Shown here piece by piece: positions 2,173 through 8,818 of a stretch of 24,889 nt of DNA. Origin of the DNA: a virus; the IMG/VR virus record IMGVR_UViG_3300020027_000031, positions 1 through 24,889 of that record; one strand, given 5' to 3'. A model generated the notes under the pieces. It had not been told where the DNA came from. It did no database searches and saw only the letters and a list, made by a program, of their open reading frames with translations. Both the position numbers and the translations under genes were made by a program. The stretch's first letter is position 1; each line of letters opens with the position of its first letter.

Positions 2173-2505
2173 TCATAGGTCGGCACTCGTCCCCCGCCCA
2201 CAGCGTTGGCACGTGAACCCTCGTGGTGGCAGATCCGTGCAGTGGCTGCAGTCGTAGTCAGGTGCCCGTAGGAGCGCGTCCGTGTCGACTCTGAGTGCTT
2301 TGGCTAGGGCGGTCAAATCGTCTACGTCAATGCGCCGTAGTCCTCTCTCCATCCTGTGGAGCCCTGTCGGTAGCAACGGCCGTCCGGCAGCCTCCATGCG
2401 GGTCGACAGCTGTTCGAAGCTGAGCTTCATCTGACGACGCAGACGACTCAGATTAGCTATGACCTGTTCGCTGGTCGGGCCCTGCGGAATGACCTTTGTT
2501 CCCAT
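2173..2505 (-). CDS. Cro/C1-type HTH regulator with C-terminal zinc ribbon
   Basis: This 110-residue DNA-binding protein is encoded opposite to the late genes. Residues 13-80 form an XRE/Cro-type five-helix domain (EQVIANLSRLRRQ, LSFEQLSTRME, LHRMERGLRRIDVDDLTALAKALRVD). The C-terminal 25 residues carry C86-x2-C89 and C99-x2-C102, a small zinc ribbon unusual for a minimal XRE regulator. No ribosome-binding site precedes the ATG at 2505. A -10-like TAGTAT ends 7 bases before it, so translation is probably leaderless. It shares that promoter region face to face with the HNH-2 gene, so self-regulation and control of HNH-2 are plausible. It converges on terS, whose stop is 68 bases away. A role in lysogeny or in late-gene control cannot be decided from sequence. 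Confidence 0.8.
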   Translation of the reverse strand: MGTKVIPQGPTSEQVIANLSRLRRQMKLSFEQLSTRMEAAGRPLLPTGLHRMERGLRRIDVDDLTALAKALRVDTDALLRAPDYDCSHCTDLPPRGFTCQRCGRGTSADL

Positions 2506-2541
2506 AACGGCTATACTAGCGGAATGGGCTGCCGGGTCGAC
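2489..2541. promoter_or_regulatory. face-to-face promoter with overlapping -10 boxes
   Basis: On the plus strand TATACT (2512-2517) lies 17 bases after ATGACC (2489-2494) and 6 bases before the ATG at 2524. On the minus strand TAGTAT (2518-2513) lies 16 bases after TCGACC (2540-2535) and 7 bases before the ATG at 2505. The two -10 boxes overlap by five base pairs inside the imperfect palindrome GCTATACTAGC (2510-2520). Transcription would begin at or next to each start codon, which explains why neither gene has a ribosome-binding site. The -35 matches are only 4 of 6. The palindrome could also be an operator for the HTH protein. Confidence 0.55.
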
Positions 2542-3126
2542 CAGTGTGCGGCACCGGTTCGAGTCAAGGTTCATCAGCTCTGCGTTCGTCATTACAACCG
2601 GTGGCAGCGGCACGGTGACGCTGAGACCCTTCTCCATCGCCCCCGCACCGAGTCGACGTGTTCTGTCGTGGGCTGCGAGAAGAAGAACCACTCCCGCGGC
2701 CTCTGCCATCAGCACTACCGGCGCCAGCACCTCTACGGGGACCCGCTCGGGCGGTCGACGAAGTACGCATCGATCAACTGTCTTGAGTGCGGGATGCCGA
2801 TTGAGGTACCGGCGGATCAAATCGGCTGGCCACCGCTGCACTGCTCTGACCGATGCCGATATCGGCGTCACAGCGTGCGGTACAACAGCCGTGGGTTCAG
2901 TCCCAGGAAGGTCGAGGGCGTACCCCGCGTCCAGGTGTTCGATCGTGACGCCTGGATCTGTGGCATCTGCCATCTGCCCGTCGATCCGACGCTGGTGTGG
3001 CCGAACGGCGGCATGGCCACCATCGACCACATCACGCCCGTCGTCGGCGGCGGCGCTCACACGTTGGCCAACGTCCGGCTGGCGCACCTGACCTGCAACA
3101 CGCGCAGGAGGGACGACAACAGGTAG
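2524..3126 (+). CDS. HNH endonuclease with mixed zinc modules (HNH-2)
   Basis: This 200-residue nuclease is a paralogue of the first HNH gene over the catalytic part: C146-x2-C149, D168-H169, N183, H188 and C191, with the shared pattern DRDxW, DHxxP, ANVRxAHxxCNxRR. Upstream are two similar Cys/His repeats (C20 ... HYNRWQRHGD and C61 ... HYRRQHLYGD) and one C-x2-C ... C-x3-C ribbon (C86/C89/C107/C111) like the three in HNH-1. It ends 11 bases before terL, whose ribosome-binding site overlaps its stop region, so HNH and TerL are likely co-translated. This is the arrangement in which phage HNH proteins assist cos cleavage. The ATG has no Shine-Dalgarno sequence and appears leaderless from TATACT at 2512. 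The nuclease call is firm; the packaging role is from context. Confidence 0.87.
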   Translation: MGCRVDQCAAPVRVKVHQLCVRHYNRWQRHGDAETLLHRPRTESTCSVVGCEKKNHSRGLCHQHYRRQHLYGDPLGRSTKYASINCLECGMPIEVPADQIGWPPLHCSDRCRYRRHSVRYNSRGFSPRKVEGVPRVQVFDRDAWICGICHLPVDPTLVWPNGGMATIDHITPVVGGGAHTLANVRLAHLTCNTRRRDDNR

Positions 3127-3137
3127 GAGGTGCGCCA

Positions 3138-3707
3138 ATGTGGCGCGGACCTACCTTTCCCGGCGAGTTCCCCAGCCTGGGCGCACAGCTCGTCGAATGG
3201 ATCGAGACCTACCTGGTCCACGGCCCCGGTGATGTGATGGGCGACCCGATCGTCCTGGACGACGAGTTCTACGAGTTCATCGTCCGCGCCTACCGCCTCG
3301 ACCCCGACACCGGCCGGCGTGTGTACCGGCGGGCGTTCCTGTCCCGTGCGAAAGGCCGCGCGAAGTCGGAGCTCGCCGGGATGCTGGTGTGCGCCGAGGC
3401 GCTGGCCCCGGTGCGGTTCGCCGGATGGGACGCGTACGGGGAGCCGGTCGCGCGGCCGGTCAAGGCCCCCTTCATTCGCTGCCTGGCGACGGAGGAAGGC
3501 CAGAGCGGCAACACGTTCGACAACGTGTCCTCGATGATGGCCAACATCGTCGAAATCCACGGCGACACCTACCCCGGCATCGACTTCGGGCGGTCCGCCC
3601 AGACGAGCTCCCGGATCCTTCTACACGCACAGCGTGGGGAGGTGGTTCCGAGCACAGCGAGTGGCGCGTCCAAGGACGGCGGGAAAGAAACATTCGCTGT
3701 GTTCTAG
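3138..3707 (+). CDS. terminase large subunit, N-terminal ATPase part (frame broken)
   Basis: This is the first 189 residues of the packaging motor ATPase/nuclease. The ATG at 3138 is fixed by AGGAGG at 3125-3130. The P-loop-like segment SRAKGRAKSE lies at residues 69-78, a deviant Walker A of the kind seen in phage TerL proteins. The frame ends at TAG 3705-3707 directly after ETFAVF, which is the hydrophobic strand of Walker B. The expected next residues, DETHLY, appear in another frame at 3715. Ten extra bases (3705-3714) separate the two halves, a net +1 shift. Read as is, this makes an inactive fragment lacking the Walker B acid and the whole nuclease domain. Joined to the next part the protein would be about 540 residues, normal for the family. 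It may be a mutation, an assembly error or recoding. Confidence 0.85.
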   Translation: MWRGPTFPGEFPSLGAQLVEWIETYLVHGPGDVMGDPIVLDDEFYEFIVRAYRLDPDTGRRVYRRAFLSRAKGRAKSELAGMLVCAEALAPVRFAGWDAYGEPVARPVKAPFIRCLATEEGQSGNTFDNVSSMMANIVEIHGDTYPGIDFGRSAQTSSRILLHAQRGEVVPSTASGASKDGGKETFAVF

Positions 3708-4767
3708 ATGGGTCGACGAAACCCATCTGTACATCCTCCCTGAGCTGCGGCGCATGCATGACACGGTGCGACGGAACCTGCGGAAGCGCCGCGAGGCGGA
3801 CCCGTGGTGCTTGGAGACGTCGACGATGTACCGGCCCGGCGAGGAGTCGGTCGCGGAGAAAACCCACGGCTACCACCAGGCGATCGTCGAGGGCCGCGTC
3901 AAGGAGAAGGGTCTCCTGTTCGACCACCGCGAGGCTCCACCTGACATTGACTTGTCGGACCGGGAGTCGCTCCTGCGTGGCCTGAGGGCGGCGTACGGGC
4001 CTGCTGCGGAGTGGATGGACCTCGACGGGATCGTCTCCGAGATTTGGGATCCGCAGAACGATGTGTCGGACTCGCGCCGCTACTGGCTCAACCAGGTTGT
4101 TGCCGCATCGGATGCGTGGTTGGCGCCGTCGGAGTGGGGTCCGCTCGCGGATGCGACGAAGTCCATCGCTGATGGTGAGACGGTCACGCTCGGGTTCGAC
4201 GGTTCGGTCCGGGAGGATTCCACCGCGCTGGTGATGTGCCGGGTCGAGGATGGGCACCTGGACTTGTTGGGGTGCTGGGAGAAGCCGGACGGCCCCGCTG
4301 GGGCTGGTTGGCAGGTTGACCGGGTCGCGGTCGACGCCGCGGTGCATGGCGCGTTTGAGCGGTTCACTGTGGTCGGTCTGTACGCGGACCCCCCGCATTT
4401 CCAGGACTACTGCGACCGGTGGATGGCGGAGTTCGGGCCGCGGTTGCGGGTGCGTGCGACGCAGCAACGCCCGATCGAGTGGTGGACGAACCGGCCGAAA
4501 GCGATGGTCGATGCCCTCGAGCGGTTCCACGAGGCGGTCGTGTCCGCGCACCTGTCCCACGACGGCGGCACTGTCCTGACCCGCCACATTCTGAACGCCA
4601 GGCGTCGGATCGGCCGCACCGGTTTGACGATCTCGAAGGAGTACCCAGGGTCGCCGCGCAAGATCGACTGTGCCATGGCGGCAGTCCTCGCCTACGAATG
4701 CCGCGCGGACGCGGTGACAGCGGGCTTTGCCCGACCCAAGAAGCGCCGCAGAGCGCAAGGATTCTGA
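3634..4767 (+). CDS. terminase large subunit, C-terminal part with nuclease domain (frame broken)
   Basis: This is the continuation of the terminase large subunit in a second frame. The recognisable protein starts at about 3715 with D-E-T-H-L-Y (the Walker B acids), while the frame itself is open from a GTG at 3634 that has no credible ribosome-binding site. The RNase-H-like nuclease is clear: GFDGS with its Asp at 4198, YADPP with Asp at 4387, and KIDCAMA with Asp at 4666, the three metal-binding acids that cut concatemeric DNA. It ends with a basic tail (KKRRRA), and the stop is 15 bases before the portal start. From 3715 onward the coding looks intact and conserved, so the frame loss seems recent. 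Independent expression of this fragment is unlikely. Confidence 0.85.
   Translation: MGRWFRAQRVARPRTAGKKHSLCSRWVDETHLYILPELRRMHDTVRRNLRKRREADPWCLETSTMYRPGEESVAEKTHGYHQAIVEGRVKEKGLLFDHREAPPDIDLSDRESLLRGLRAAYGPAAEWMDLDGIVSEIWDPQNDVSDSRRYWLNQVVAASDAWLAPSEWGPLADATKSIADGETVTLGFDGSVREDSTALVMCRVEDGHLDLLGCWEKPDGPAGAGWQVDRVAVDAAVHGAFERFTVVGLYADPPHFQDYCDRWMAEFGPRLRVRATQQRPIEWWTNRPKAMVDALERFHEAVVSAHLSHDGGTVLTRHILNARRRIGRTGLTISKEYPGSPRKIDCAMAAVLAYECRADAVTAGFARPKKRRRAQGF
3706..3728 (+). repeat. perfect 8-bp hairpin at the terL frame break
   Basis: AGATGGGT (3706-3713) is the exact reverse complement of ACCCATCT (3721-3728), with a 7-base spacer. The right arm is normal coding sequence (T-H-L of the Walker B region). 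The left arm makes up 8 of the 10 surplus bases. This is what template switching at a quasi-palindrome would leave behind, or a chimeric read artefact. Confidence 0.8.
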
Positions 4768-4782
4768 CGAGGGGGCACGCCC

Positions 4783-6210
4783 GTGGCGGAAGCCTCCGAC
4801 CTTGAGCCGCTCGAGTGGCTGGCACGGTTGGGTCCGAAGCTCAGCGACCGCCAGGCTCTGATCGGCTACTGGCGGCGCTACTACGAGGGCGACCAGGATC
4901 TCCCGGCCGGCCCGAACCAGCACCACGAGGCCTACAGGCGGTTCCAGCGGCTTGCCCGGACGAACCTGTGCTATCTGTGCGCCGAGTCGCGGGTGCACCG
5001 CACCCAGGTCATCGGGTTCAGGGACTCCGACGGTCGCGACGACCAGGTGTGGCGGCTGTGGCAGGCCGCGAAGCTCGACGCCCGCCAGTTCGGGATCTGG
5101 CGTAAGGCCTACTCGCGGTCGGCCGCGTATGTGACGGTCGGCGTGGACCCGAAGGACTCGTCGAAGCCGCGGGTGACGATCGAGGGCCCCGAGAACGTCA
5201 TCGTGGAGACCGATCCGGCCGACAACTCGCGCCGCCTCGCCGCGTTGCGGATGTGGCACGACCCGATTGTGCGGCGCTGGATGGCGACCCTGTACCTGCC
5301 GGGGGTGCGTTATCACTGGCGGTCCCGCGCTGAGGTCAAGGACGCCGACATGGGTGCGGGCCGGCTCAAGTTCAGTGCGGATGCGTGGGAGCTGCGCTCG
5401 GAGCCGGGTCGCAGCTTGCAGAACGTGCCGGTGGTGCCGTTTCTCAACGGTGACGAGGGTGACGAGCCGACGGCGGCGTTCGCCCGCGGTATCGACGTGC
5501 AGAACCGGCTGAACCTGACCCTTTTGAACCGGCTCACCGCGGAACGGTATGCGGCGTTCCGGCAGCGGTGGATCACGAACTATGAGACGGAGATCGACGA
5601 GGCCACCGGGCTCGCGATCGCCCCGTTCAAGCCTGGCACCGATCAGACGTGGACGTTGCCGCCTCCGGAGGCGGGTATGCCGGAGTCGAAGTTCGGTGAC
5701 TTCCAGCAGACCGACACCAGTCAGATGCTGCGTGGCTGTGAGGCGGACATGCGTGCGTTCGCCGCGGTCACCCTGACCCCGGTGTACTACCTCCCCGGCG
5801 ATCTGATCAACATTGGTGCGGACTCCATCGCAGCGTTGGATGCCGGGCACATCGCTGATGTGAAGCAGTCCGAGGCGGTGTGGGGTGAAGGCCTCGAAGA
5901 GGTTTTGCAGCTGATGGCTGATGTGGCCGGTCTGGATCGGGATCTGTCGCAGTCGGAGATCGTGTGGGCGCGTCCGGAGAACTTCCAGCCGGCTGTGGTC
6001 GCCGATTACGCCTCGAAGCTGAAGAGTGCTGGGGTGCCGCTGCCGATGGTGGTCGAGGAGATCGGGTGGACCCCGCAACGGGTCAACCAGTTGCGTTCGG
6101 AGCAGGCCGCGGAGGCGTTCATGGCCGCCGCGGTCGCACCGGAGCAGCCACAACGCCCCACCGCGCCTGCACCCCGGACTGAGCCTGTTCCGCAACCTGC
6201 AGGGGAGTAG
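4783..6210 (+). CDS. portal protein
   Basis: This 475-residue protein would form the dodecameric ring at the capsid vertex through which DNA enters and leaves and on which terminase and the neck dock. It has the SPP1/HK97-type portal layout: an N-terminal helical region with YYEGDQDLP and the conserved segment RLARTNLCYLCAES (residues 57-70), a beta-rich wing (about 110-240) including VVPFLNGDEGDEP, the long stem/crown helices around the segment beginning GIDVQNRLNLTLLNRLTA (236-253), and a C-terminal low-complexity Pro/Ala/Glu tail. The segment LTPVYYLPGDLINIGADSI (321-339) is typical of actinophage portals. The GTG at 4783 follows GAGGGGG at 4769-4775. It sits directly downstream of terL and directly upstream of the MuF gene, the standard order. 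Confidence 0.92.
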   Translation: MAEASDLEPLEWLARLGPKLSDRQALIGYWRRYYEGDQDLPAGPNQHHEAYRRFQRLARTNLCYLCAESRVHRTQVIGFRDSDGRDDQVWRLWQAAKLDARQFGIWRKAYSRSAAYVTVGVDPKDSSKPRVTIEGPENVIVETDPADNSRRLAALRMWHDPIVRRWMATLYLPGVRYHWRSRAEVKDADMGAGRLKFSADAWELRSEPGRSLQNVPVVPFLNGDEGDEPTAAFARGIDVQNRLNLTLLNRLTAERYAAFRQRWITNYETEIDEATGLAIAPFKPGTDQTWTLPPPEAGMPESKFGDFQQTDTSQMLRGCEADMRAFAAVTLTPVYYLPGDLINIGADSIAALDAGHIADVKQSEAVWGEGLEEVLQLMADVAGLDRDLSQSEIVWARPENFQPAVVADYASKLKSAGVPLPMVVEEIGWTPQRVNQLRSEQAAEAFMAAAVAPEQPQRPTAPAPRTEPVPQPAGE

Positions 6211-6213
6211 CCG

Positions 6214-8178
6214 GTGGGGCTGGTAGAGCAGTCCCGGCTGGTGTCAGCGTTCGTGGCGTCGATGGCGAAGGTGCGGTCCCGTCTCACCCGCGTCCTCGAC
6301 GACATGTTCACGTCCCCGAAGTCGTGGCGCGAAGCTGACGCCGCACGGTTCGTCGAACGTGCCGTCCCCGCGGTGCAGGGCGCGCAGCGAACAGCTGCAT
6401 CCCTGACGGATGACTTCCTGTCGAGGATGATCGCCGATCAGACGGGGGAGCCGTACCGGCCGCACGGCGTCGACCAGAACAAGGTCACCGGTGCGGCACC
6501 GCGGAACGGCACACCACCGGAAGAGGTGTACCGACGCCCGTACGAAGAGGTGTGGTCCTCCCTCGCAGAGGACCGCCGCCGTGGTGAAGAGGTCGCACGG
6601 GTTCAGCAGGCACTCGAGCAGGCCGAAGCTCGCCAGTCGGCGCAGCAACGGAACGCCGCCTCCATCCAAGAGGCGTTGCGCCGGTTCGAAGAAGCCGGCA
6701 AGGCCCGCTCGAACCGTGAACAGCGCCCCACCCTCACCGACCCGACAACGGGACGGAAGGTAGCCCGACCCAACGACAAGCCCCTCACAGAGGCTGTCGG
6801 ACGCGGGCAACGCCGAGCGAAACTGCTCGGGCTCACCGACGTCGAGCTCGCCGTCACACACACCGTGCGGGAACGTCTCGCCGACGAACCCCGCTACCGG
6901 TTCTACCGCCGCGTCCTCACCGGCATGGAGTCGTGCGGGCTGTGCGTTGTCGCATCAACGCAGCGGTACCGGAAACGGGACCTGCTCCCGATCCACCCGA
7001 ACTGCGTACCTACGGGCACGTCTGTCCGGGCTCGGAACATTTCAGGCGCCACGCGCCGGTGGTATACCGGGGAACTCGCCGTTCTCACAACGGCCCGTGG
7101 CGATCACGTGTCCGTCACCCCGAATCACCCGGTACTGACCAAGCGCGGTTGGGTCCCAGCTGGCGCTGTTCGCGAAGGTGATTACCTGGTTCGCGCCGCC
7201 GGGTCCGAGCGGGTAGTTGGGCACAGCCCAGACGAAGGCTATGCACCAGCCCTCGCTGAGGATGTATGGCGTTCGCTCGCGGTGACGTTCGGGTTTGTCC
7301 AGGTGCCACTCGCCTCCGAGGATTTCCACGGCGACGGGGCCGACAGTGAAGTCGACGTTGTACGGGCCGATGGCTACTTCTCTGCGGTAGGGGATGTCCC
7401 GCTGCCGCAGGTTGCTCTCGAAGACCCGTTCCTGGCTGGACATGTCGGGCGGCTGCAGCTGCCTGGTTTTGGCGCTTCTGCAGCGCTCGTACCAGCTGGC
7501 GCTTCGGCCGCGCACAGCCTGGTGGGCAGCGGCGGTCTGACTGGCGCGTTGTTCGGGGGTCATCTGTGCGGCGCGCACCTGGCCGGCGTCGGATGGCCCT
7601 CGGCGGGTGACGCCGGCTTCGTTGAGCCATCGTGTGACGACATTGCGAGAGACCCCATGTCGGTGCGCGAGGACGTGCTCGGCGAGTCCGTTCTCGCGGT
7701 AGTCGATCCGGAGCTGTTCAGTCGAGTAACCGACGTCGGCAGGGTCGATTTTGCGGGTCATGTCTTCAACTTCCACACGAGGTTGGGAACATACGAAGCA
7801 AACAGTCACATCGTACACAATTGTGACTGCGCGATTGCGTTGATCCTCGGCGAGCAAGACCCGGGCCACATCATCAACAGCAAGCAGGTCGGGAAGGACG
7901 TCACCCCCACCGGGGAGTCGAAGTCCGGTGTCCCGATCTTCTCCGACAACCAGCTGGTTGACCTCGGGGAACTGTTGGATGCCGTGCACAAGGCGGTGCA
8001 GGACGAGTTCGGGTTCGCCGCGATGGATGCGCGTCGCCTCGACTACCGCAAGGTCATCACCGTGCACGAGCACGGTGAGCTCGGCCCCACCTTGACGGTG
8101 GCGCGGCACAAGTTCACGAAACGCCAGGTTGCACAGCGGGACTTCGCCGCTCCACCCGGCAGCTTCAGCGATCGCTGA
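6214..8178 (+). CDS. MuF-like minor head protein interrupted by an in-frame intein
   Basis: The precursor has 654 residues. After removal of residues 264-536 the mature protein would be 381 residues, normal for a MuF-type capsid/morphogenesis protein. Such proteins sit inside the head near the portal and may be ejected with DNA. The extein N-part (1-263) has a long charged coiled-coil-like stretch (about 105-170) and the family signature C-x2-C-x3-A-x3-Y ... P-I-H-P-N. The signature resumes after the intein as C-D-C (537-539). The downstream extein ends with VTVHEHGELGP and a Lys/Arg-rich region. The GTG at 6214 follows AGGGGAG (6201-6207), 3 bases after the portal stop. A second gene is encoded on the opposite strand inside the intein segment. 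MuF assignment rests on position and the HPN-CDC motif. Confidence 0.88.
   Translation: MGLVEQSRLVSAFVASMAKVRSRLTRVLDDMFTSPKSWREADAARFVERAVPAVQGAQRTAASLTDDFLSRMIADQTGEPYRPHGVDQNKVTGAAPRNGTPPEEVYRRPYEEVWSSLAEDRRRGEEVARVQQALEQAEARQSAQQRNAASIQEALRRFEEAGKARSNREQRPTLTDPTTGRKVARPNDKPLTEAVGRGQRRAKLLGLTDVELAVTHTVRERLADEPRYRFYRRVLTGMESCGLCVVASTQRYRKRDLLPIHPNCVPTGTSVRARNISGATRRWYTGELAVLTTARGDHVSVTPNHPVLTKRGWVPAGAVREGDYLVRAAGSERVVGHSPDEGYAPALAEDVWRSLAVTFGFVQVPLASEDFHGDGADSEVDVVRADGYFSAVGDVPLPQVALEDPFLAGHVGRLQLPGFGASAALVPAGASAAHSLVGSGGLTGALFGGHLCGAHLAGVGWPSAGDAGFVEPSCDDIARDPMSVREDVLGESVLAVVDPELFSRVTDVGRVDFAGHVFNFHTRLGTYEANSHIVHNCDCAIALILGEQDPGHIINSKQVGKDVTPTGESKSGVPIFSDNQLVDLGELLDAVHKAVQDEFGFAAMDARRLDYRKVITVHEHGELGPTLTVARHKFTKRQVAQRDFAAPPGSFSDR
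7003..7821 (+). other. intein (273 residues) in the MuF gene
   Basis: This is a self-splicing protein element. Splicing residues are all present: Cys1 (codon 7003-7005, start of CVPTGTSV), the block B sequence VTPNHPVL with T39 and H42, RGWVPAGAVREGDYLV, a block F sequence FAGHVFNFHTRLGTYEANSHI, and the terminal H272-N273 followed by Cys+1 (7822-7824). Splicing would join ...IHPN to CDCAIAL..., restoring the MuF signature. The middle (about residues 65-245) is Gly/Ala/Val/Leu-rich and shows no LAGLIDADG or HNH endonuclease in this frame. That stretch is instead the complement of an antisense nuclease gene. Insertion at the most conserved motif of the host protein is the usual intein habit. 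Splicing activity is predicted, not shown. Confidence 0.9.
7042..7761 (-). CDS. antisense Vsr/EDxHD-like homing endonuclease overprinted on the intein
   Basis: This 239-residue protein is encoded on the minus strand wholly inside the intein. Residues 12-55 form a homeodomain-like helix-turn-helix (EQLRIDY, LAHRHGVSRNVVTRWLNEAGV). Residues 108-200 form a Vsr/PD-(D/E)xK-like core: E111, then IGPYNVDF with D137, VAVEILGGEWH with E146 and H153, RHRERTPYIL, then EGWCIAFVW. This matches free-standing Vsr-fold homing nucleases of phages. The ATG at 7761 follows GGAAG with 8-base spacing, and the TGA is at 7044-7042. Codons are in exact register with the intein: the sense codons for V101, V117 and F108 are complements of H153, D137 and E146. 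It presumably cuts intein-free MuF genes to drive homing. Late transcription of the plus strand would oppose its mRNA. Domain recognition is by eye. Confidence 0.72.
   Translation of the reverse strand: MTRKIDPADVGYSTEQLRIDYRENGLAEHVLAHRHGVSRNVVTRWLNEAGVTRRGPSDAGQVRAAQMTPEQRASQTAAAHQAVRGRSASWYERCRSAKTRQLQPPDMSSQERVFESNLRQRDIPYRREVAIGPYNVDFTVGPVAVEILGGEWHLDKPERHRERTPYILSEGWCIAFVWAVPNYPLGPGGANQVITFANSASWDPTALGQYRVIRGDGHVIATGRCENGEFPGIPPARGA
7803..7829. repeat. inverted repeat across the intein 3' boundary
   Basis: CAGTCACA (7803-7810) and TGTGACTG (7822-7829) are perfect 8-bp inverted arms around an 11-base spacer. The right arm begins exactly at the +1 Cys codon, so one arm is intein and one is extein. 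It also contains the short palindrome CACAATTGTG (7816-7825). On the minus strand it lies 42 bases upstream of the nuclease ATG and could be a leader hairpin or operator. Confidence 0.6.
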
Positions 8179-8192
8179 ACACCCCTAGAGAC

Positions 8193-8215
8193 CTCTCGCG
8201 CCTTTGCGCGGGGAG
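8193..8215 (+). promoter_or_regulatory. hairpin between MuF and scaffold genes
   Basis: The 91-base gap 8179-8269 contains CTCTCGCGC (8193-8201), loop CTTT and GCGCGGGGAG (8206-8215), a 9-bp stem with one bulged G and one G-T pair. No T run follows, so it is not a classical terminator. It could be an RNA processing or stability element ahead of the highly expressed scaffold and capsid genes. Confidence 0.4.
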
Positions 8216-8269
8216 CGCTACGTCCGCGCTTGCAAAGGACGGAATGCCGACGGGCTTACGGAGCACCAC

Positions 8270-8818
8270 ATGAGCGACGACCAAGACAGCGCAGCGGACG
8301 GCCTCGACATCACCGATGACGATGCCGCGAAGCTGCTCGACGACGCCACCCCCGACAAGGGGGCAGCAGCCACGTTCTCGCAGGCCGACGTCGAACGAAT
8401 CGTGTCCGACCGGCTCAGCAGGGAACGGAAGAAGTACGCCGACTACGGCGACCTCAAGAAGCAGGCAGCGGCGGCGAAGACCGTTGAGCAGCAGCTCGAA
8501 GAGGTCCGCGCGCAGATCGGTGAACGCGACAAGCGCGACACCGAACGCAACGGGCGCCTCGCCCTGTCGCAGCTCAACACGCGCCTCGCCGAGGCCGGCA
8601 TCAAACGCGACGACGTCGCAGGCCTGATCAAGCGGATCTCCCCGACCGACTTGCTCGCCGAGGGCGAACCCAACGACGAGGCCATCGGTGAACTCGCCGA
8701 TTCCCTCGTGAAGATCGCGGGCCGCGCCACACCGGACCCCGACCAGGGGCAAAAGGGCGGCAAGGCACCGCTCGACATGAACCAGCTGATCCGGCGCGCT
8801 GCCGGAGTCACGAGCTAA
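8270..8818 (+). CDS. capsid scaffolding protein
   Basis: This 182-residue, highly charged, mainly helical protein sits immediately before the major capsid gene. This is the position and composition of phage scaffolding proteins, which guide procapsid assembly and then leave. Residues 1-45 are acidic and disordered-looking (DDQD, DITDDDAAKLLDD), 45-115 form a likely coiled coil (VERIVSDRLSRERKKYADYG, then a Lys/Glu/Gln-rich helix), and the C-terminus has a basic, helical tail (NQLIRRAAGV) of the type that docks on capsid protein. The ATG at 8270 has GGAG 6 bases upstream. The in-frame extension back to 8204 lacks a ribosome-binding site. No separate prohead protease gene is visible near it, consistent with a scaffold that exits without cleavage. 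Confidence 0.82.
   Translation: MSDDQDSAADGLDITDDDAAKLLDDATPDKGAAATFSQADVERIVSDRLSRERKKYADYGDLKKQAAAAKTVEQQLEEVRAQIGERDKRDTERNGRLALSQLNTRLAEAGIKRDDVAGLIKRISPTDLLAEGEPNDEAIGELADSLVKIAGRATPDPDQGQKGGKAPLDMNQLIRRAAGVTS

Follow-up and report, generated by a model that had tools for sequence, protein, structure and literature searches.

A phage MuF intein and a predicted Vsr-like homing endonuclease encoded codon over codon on opposite DNA strands

The window analysed here is the whole stretch of viral DNA, 24,889 nucleotides in length (IMG/VR virus record IMGVR_UViG_3300020027_000031). A gene for a MuF-type minor head/head maturation protein is located at 6214-8178 on the plus strand (PHROG 1522, head maturation protease, 1.5e-55), with the portal gene before it (4783-6210) and the scaffold gene after it (8204-8818). 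The gene is interrupted by an intein of 273 residues (819 nt; 7003-7821, +), which begins with Cys1 at 7003 and ends with a His-Asn pair, with Asn273 at 7821, and is followed by Cys+1. These boundaries are those given by intein-free alleles (see below). The marks of a class 1 intein are present, including Cys1, the TxxH motif of block B, the His-Asn of block G, and a Cys, Ser or Thr residue at the +1 position. Blocks A, B (TPNHPVLT..GW) and F/G (GHVYNL...HN) are conserved in 36 relatives, and residues C1, N41, H42 and N273 are invariant in the intein alignment (A3). The match to the Pfam Intein_splicing family is weak (7.6e-5, 23 bits, under the cutoff of 35.8). The element is assigned as a class 1 intein, whose Hint halves are inferred to splice it out of the MuF precursor.

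The two Hint halves are predicted with confidence by AlphaFold. The N-terminal splicing half (residues 1-66; 7003-7200, +) has pLDDT above 90 over most of its length, and the C-terminal half (residues 234-273; 7702-7821, +), which contains blocks F and G and is conserved in alignment A3, has pLDDT of 90-98. Residues 124-233 are disordered in the model (pLDDT about 40). No nuclease domain is found in the sense frame of the intein, in which the model gives no ordered structure for residues 123-230 and their conservation is no more than the other strand forces, and a canonical intein with an in-frame nuclease was therefore rejected. An earlier note on this locus, made without database searches, had claimed complete splicing blocks and no endonuclease in the intein's own frame, and both claims held. 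A fractured gene with a split intein is not met either, as MuF is a single ORF open across 6214-8178, with the host gene and the intein not split into separate ORFs.

Two other regions of the window are of note. The large terminase is encoded by two overlapping ORFs in different frames (2997-3707 and 3634-4767, both +), which cover adjoining PHROG 9 positions, 69-326 and 326-675. This split is possibly due to a frameshift, either programmed or from assembly. A free-standing HNH endonuclease gene (2524-3126, +; PHROG 1271, 1.6e-21) is located just upstream of the terminase and could be a second selfish nuclease.

On the minus strand, an ORF of 239 residues plus stop (7042-7761) lies within the intein and overlaps its splicing blocks as well. 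The two frames are in codon register, such that sense and antisense codons pair one to one as reverse complements. The earlier note had given these coordinates, the 239 codons, the coverage of 720 of the 819 intein bases and the codon register, all of which held. The AlphaFold model of the 239-residue protein has a mean pLDDT of 90.7. A profile search of the PDB finds I-Bth0305I (3r3p) as the top match (2.1e-7), and Foldseek with the model finds 3r3p with a probability of 1.00 and Vsr (1cw0) with a probability of 0.99, so that the structural comparison with Vsr and I-Bth0305I suggested by the earlier note gave a match. The Foldseek E-value against the PDB (3.1e-3), with a TM-score on the target of 0.63, counts against the reading, as does the Pfam DUF559 match of the window nuclease (0.0013), which is under the cutoff. 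The Vsr-like or I-Bth0305I-like fold and the active-site residues are predictions by model, and cleavage of DNA is inferred.

The model shows three helices (residues 14-23, 28-35 and 39-48) in an N-terminal helix-turn-helix region (residues 14-48; 7618-7722, −), and members of the family have Pfam matches to HTH domains. The N-terminal HTH of the earlier note thus held. The Vsr-like catalytic core is formed by residues 109-180 (7222-7437, −), with a helix-strand-strand-strand-helix-strand topology in the model, and contains Glu111, Tyr134, Asn135, Asp137, Glu146 and Arg163 (alignments A1 and A2). These residues, together with Ala144 and Val145, are conserved across relatives. In the wider alignment, Tyr134, Asn135, Asp137, Ala144, Val145 and Glu146 are invariant and Glu111 is conserved at 90% or more, and Arg163 is invariant among the first 20 relatives aligned. 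The ORF in the window is complete, and all the invariant residues are intact. The earlier note had described a Vsr/EDxHD-like core with Glu111, Asp137, Glu146, Trp152-His153, Trp172 and Trp178. This claim held in part: the three acidic residues are present and conserved, while Trp152, His153, Trp172 and Trp178 are not conserved across the family. The His/Asp part of the EDxHD name has no clear support here, in that His153 of the window protein lacks conservation among relatives.

The predicted ATG start codon of the nuclease (7759-7761, −) is the reverse complement of CAT, the codon for the His residue of block F, and in most relatives it is located 20 codons from the C-terminal end of the intein. 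Relatives prefer CAT over CAC at this position (38:6, compared to 163:267 outside the overlap, p=6e-10). The neighboring Leu residue is encoded by CTC or CTT in 36 of 45 cases (616 of 1,727 elsewhere, p=3e-9), which writes GAG or AAG upstream of the start. Shine-Dalgarno-like sequences (GGAG, GAGG, AGGA or AAGG) are found ahead of 36 of 44 starts in relatives, compared to 25 of 230 control codons (p=5e-21). In the window itself, a Shine-Dalgarno-like GGAAG (7770-7774, −) is positioned 8 nt before the ATG, within the coding sequence of blocks F and G, and it is a weaker match than the family norm. No sigma-70-like promoter was recognised on the minus strand, and neither a promoter nor a terminator was called close to the start of the nuclease; promoters of actinobacterial phages may not fit the sigma-70 consensus. 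The earlier note had also proposed a timing switch, in which late plus-strand transcription is antisense to the nuclease message. There is no evidence for this proposal.

The length of the antisense ORF was rejected as evidence that it is a gene. The window is rich in GC, and spurious antisense frames as long as this one or longer are abundant in it, for example one of 907 residues at 3472-6195; the nuclease frame itself is open over 380 codons. Length is uninformative in this window, and the case therefore rests on comparative tests. Among 69 diverged pairs of relatives, with less than 45% antisense identity, no stop codon is found in 14,409 shared codons. Antisense conservation is 0.98, compared to 0.16 after permutation of synonymous codons that preserves the sense protein (z=125), and in the converse shuffle sense conservation is 0.66, compared to 0.11 (z=78). 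In comparison, the antisense frame of the N-extein, as a control, gives a z of 1.6 and has 75 stops in 4,483 codons. TTA, CTA and TCA, the sense codons that place a stop in the nuclease, account for 3 of 3,306 Leu/Ser codons in the overlap and 565 of 4,048 outside it. The same avoidance is observed in pairs with GC below 0.46 (1 of 701 Leu/Ser codons in the overlap, 215 of 689 outside). Finally, in 13 close pairs the changes are distributed as 48, 16 and 36% over sense positions 1, 2 and 3 in the overlap, compared to 27, 21 and 51% in the exteins. Sense position 1, where most of these changes fall, is the wobble position of the antisense codon.

A further test uses inteins that were ascertained from the sense strand only, with the pattern DFHGDG....V[DE]xx, which accepts any third base in the Val codons and does not distinguish TTC from TTT. 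In the 101 inteins of this set, the Phe codon is TTC and the first Val codon is GTC without exception, the next codon is GTT or ATT in all 101, and the last is GTA or ATA in 98. On the other strand, these silent choices (TTC, GTC, GTT/ATT and GTA/ATA) spell Glu146, Asp137, Asn135 and Tyr134 of the nuclease. Moreover, all 73 new loci found with the sense-motif pattern match the nuclease profile. An intein that lacks the entire DFHGDG segment would be missed by this sampling. No decayed or nuclease-less members were found, although motif-based samples would miss many such members. The intein of Kewpiedoll, a candidate nuclease-less mini-intein from a search with the joined splicing domains, was rejected as it has a full nuclease. 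Overall, both frames of this overlapping gene pair are under purifying selection. The selection on both strands claimed by the earlier note thus held on these computational tests, including its proposed overlapping-gene test on MuF inteins, with the Asp and Glu codons kept in all 101 sense-ascertained inteins.

The constraint on the sense frame is not uniform along the overlap. In the splicing blocks (residues 17-61), sense conservation exceeds the level forced by the nuclease, with z values of 32-53 by block. Residues 87-122 (DFHGDG..SEVDVV; 7261-7368, +), which are located over the catalytic core of the nuclease, are also conserved above the forced level (z=17 to 27 by block). Both frames exceed expectation in this doubly constrained segment, which contains the sense-silent bases that are fixed in the 101 inteins. 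In contrast, residues 123-230 (7369-7692, +) have sense conservation equal to the forced level (z of 0-3) and form a shadow linker, with a sequence dictated by the nuclease. The nuclease is conserved along its whole length. The block z scores agree with the AlphaFold model of the intein, and therefore the sense sequence opposite the HTH/linker half of the nuclease is shadow only, while the active-site half of the nuclease is constrained in both directions. The earlier note had read DFHGDG...EVDVV as the shadow of the nuclease motifs. This held only in part, as residues 87-122 are constrained beyond a shadow and residues 123-230 are essentially shadow alone. The DFHGDG..EVDVV segment (7261-7368, +) is partly folded in the model; it is conserved more than the nuclease needs, and its role in the intein is unexplained.

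A tblastn search with the antisense protein finds 125 phage records, 116 of which match 80% or more of its length, from phages of Gordonia, Salmonella, Pseudomonas, Klebsiella, Vibrio, Haemophilus and other hosts. In records of these kinds, the antisense protein outscores the sense intein. When IMG/VR was searched with a DNA pattern for the nuclease motif, at least 119 stretches matched, and 118 of the 119 are true relatives by profile. Their GC content ranges from 0.36 to 0.73, and nearly all have an open, in-register sense frame with block F/G. The nuclease and intein pair is present at about 190 sampled IMG/VR loci, and 18 of 25 pattern matches in genome_contigs are relatives. The N-exteins tested are mostly MuF-family head proteins. 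In the Rctr197k virus (L012, 616-1968, −), the same intein with its antisense nuclease is located in a gene annotated as head morphogenesis, which we take to be dCMP-deaminase-like by sequence inspection only, without a profile.

Intein-free alleles are available for comparison. Three contigs (L142-L144), with MuF identity of 63-69%, are empty at the exact insertion site, the best of them with 83% nucleotide identity across the junction, and many phage records match the joined exteins. Between Snoke and a Salmonella Jerseyvirus, the inteins share 96% identity and the N-exteins 70%. According to the report on Snoke (PMC6776784), LSPA1 has an almost identical intein and K1ind2 lacks one. Double coding slows change, and high identity of the intein is only partial evidence of transfer. 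In Escherichia phage BEU35 (L253), an intact, related intein with its nuclease is located at a second MuF site, and the usual site is empty. This change of site may represent a shift in target specificity. An apparent internal stop in the BEU35 nuclease was rejected, as it is the gene's own end.

The nuclease also exists without an intein. In Acinetobacter phage P1068 (L016, 1803-2696, +), a free-standing nuclease gene is the convergent neighbor of an uninterrupted, intein-free MuF gene, and the identical nuclease is found in three Acinetobacter phage records, P1068 included. The former sense frame of this copy has 9 stops in 216 aligned codons. In the tree, the copy is nested among intein-borne copies (support of 100/89 with L037, inside a 100/96 clade of 20). 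It has therefore probably escaped from an intein and then lost only the sense frame.

A second, unrelated case is found in the Gordonia phages Nordenberg, Lennon and Barsten (L248, L249 and L250), where a different intein at the corresponding MuF site has an antisense ORF at 2495-3082. The encoded protein is of the LAGLIDADG type, matching I-MsoI by profile (1.2e-13) and PHROG 5046 (2.2e-15). The Pfam LAGLIDADG match of the Nordenberg element is only 0.26, and the identity was settled with a profile that includes free-standing relatives, which are found in one cyanophage and in Caulobacter phages. Nordenberg and Barsten differ at 51, 6 and 16 sense positions 1, 2 and 3 in the overlap, a pattern that follows the antisense wobble, whereas their flanks differ mainly at position 3. 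This case is one informative pair from one genus, and no more LAGLIDADG antisense inteins were found in the viral-contig search. Taken as a joint claim, it is likely that inteins have a general solution in which the nuclease is encoded antisense, reached at least twice with unrelated folds (Vsr-like and LAGLIDADG) at the corresponding MuF site, and that in the Vsr-like case block F also supplies the ribosome site and start codon of the nuclease, with an active-site segment that is functional on both strands.

The most probable reading of the locus, at roughly 0.88, is a mobile intein whose homing endonuclease gene is on the complementary strand, codon over codon. The presence of two genes, the selection on both, the predicted nuclease fold and active-site residues, the start and ribosome signals of relatives, the empty alleles, and the identity of the intein above that of its flanks in close pairs are shown by the sequences; expression, cleavage and gene conversion are inferred. 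From the plus strand, the MuF precursor would be made, and the intein would be excised from it by its Hint halves (residues 1-66 and 234-273). The minus strand would give its own message, with translation beginning at the ATG and a ribosome site that is the antisense of block F, and the product would be the HTH and Vsr-like nuclease. During co-infection, the nuclease would cut intein-free MuF alleles at the insertion site, and repair of the cut allele would copy the intein across. The earlier note had called the antisense frame a homing-type nuclease, and homing is the part of this claim that remains inferred. It had also named outcomes that would refute it, namely minus-strand stops or lost codons, no structural match, and no free-standing relative, none of which occurred.

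Three alternative explanations were considered. In the first, the nuclease is real but does not home the intein. It would instead benefit the phage, for instance through cleavage of the DNA of competitors, with the intein as no more than a place of shelter for the nuclease. The free-standing copy that persists beside an intein-free MuF gene in Acinetobacter phages is in favor of this explanation. Free-standing homing nucleases of phages are known to affect competing phages, which is also in its favor. However, the nuclease is almost always inside inteins, mainly in MuF-family genes, and the exact-site empty alleles and the identity of the intein above its flanks are as homing predicts. Cutting of rivals and homing are also not exclusive of each other, and this explanation is considered very unlikely. 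In the second, equally improbable explanation, the window copy is decaying, with an intein that still splices and a nuclease that is inactive. Homing-cycle theory expects decayed nucleases, and the Shine-Dalgarno sequence of the window is weaker than usual, but the ORF is complete with all its invariant residues, although the selection history of a single copy cannot be measured. The third explanation, that the antisense frame is an artefact of high GC and conservation of the intein protein, has in its favor the spurious antisense ORFs of the window and the copying of sense conservation onto the other strand by a codon-register overlap, but it is all but excluded by the avoidance of TTA, CTA and TCA in low-GC pairs, an antisense conservation that beats sense-preserving shuffles where the extein control does not, the fixed sense-silent bases, the substitutions that track the antisense wobble, and the confident predicted fold.

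In the usual teaching, an intein has its nuclease as a domain within its own reading frame. With the mobile antisense-nuclease intein proposed here, a splicing protein and a nuclease share the two strands of roughly 240-300 codons, and this arrangement is seen again in phages whose bacterial hosts differ widely, with selection that can be measured on both strands. It is an unusually strong natural example of antisense double coding in codon register, with a built-in control in the escaped nuclease, whose sense frame has decayed. It raises the question of how the opposing transcription is arranged, and other nucleases on the complementary strands of inteins may have escaped annotation. No earlier account of a nuclease antisense to its intein came up in the literature searched, which left out Gosselin et al. 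2025 (bioRxiv 10.1101/2025.01.02.630785), a preprint on non-canonical actinobacteriophage inteins that is cited in PMC11855218, as well as Dassa 2009 and Taylor 2011. The layout appears to be new for inteins, a statement made with reserve.

Several known systems share features with this element. The I-Bth0305I/Vsr-like (EDxHD) homing endonucleases (PDB 3r3p; PMC3943268) have the same catalytic core with a separate DNA-binding module, in a phage homing context. However, I-Bth0305I is annotated as a mobile intron protein, whereas the window nuclease is antisense within an intein and the His/Asp of EDxHD do not appear to be conserved. Canonical large inteins, with LAGLIDADG or HNH nucleases, likewise have Hint halves, insertion into an essential phage gene, and a nuclease as the driver. 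Their nuclease is in frame, while in the window it is encoded by an antisense gene of its own, which also runs over the splicing blocks. Dassa et al. 2009 (doi 10.1093/nar/gkp095) reportedly describe fractured genes in which split inteins occur with Vsr-like nucleases, and the association of such a nuclease with phage inteins is shared with the window element. In those genes, a nuclease ORF of its own stands between the parts of the host gene and intein, whereas the window intein is contiguous and fully double-coding. The ShiLan-type HNH nuclease in a phage methylase (PMC11855218) is likewise a selfish nuclease concealed within an inserted sequence, in another reading frame. In that case, the nuclease is on the same strand, in the third frame, and there is no self-splicing domain. 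In comparison, the nuclease in the window is on the opposite strand, in codon register with an intein predicted to splice.
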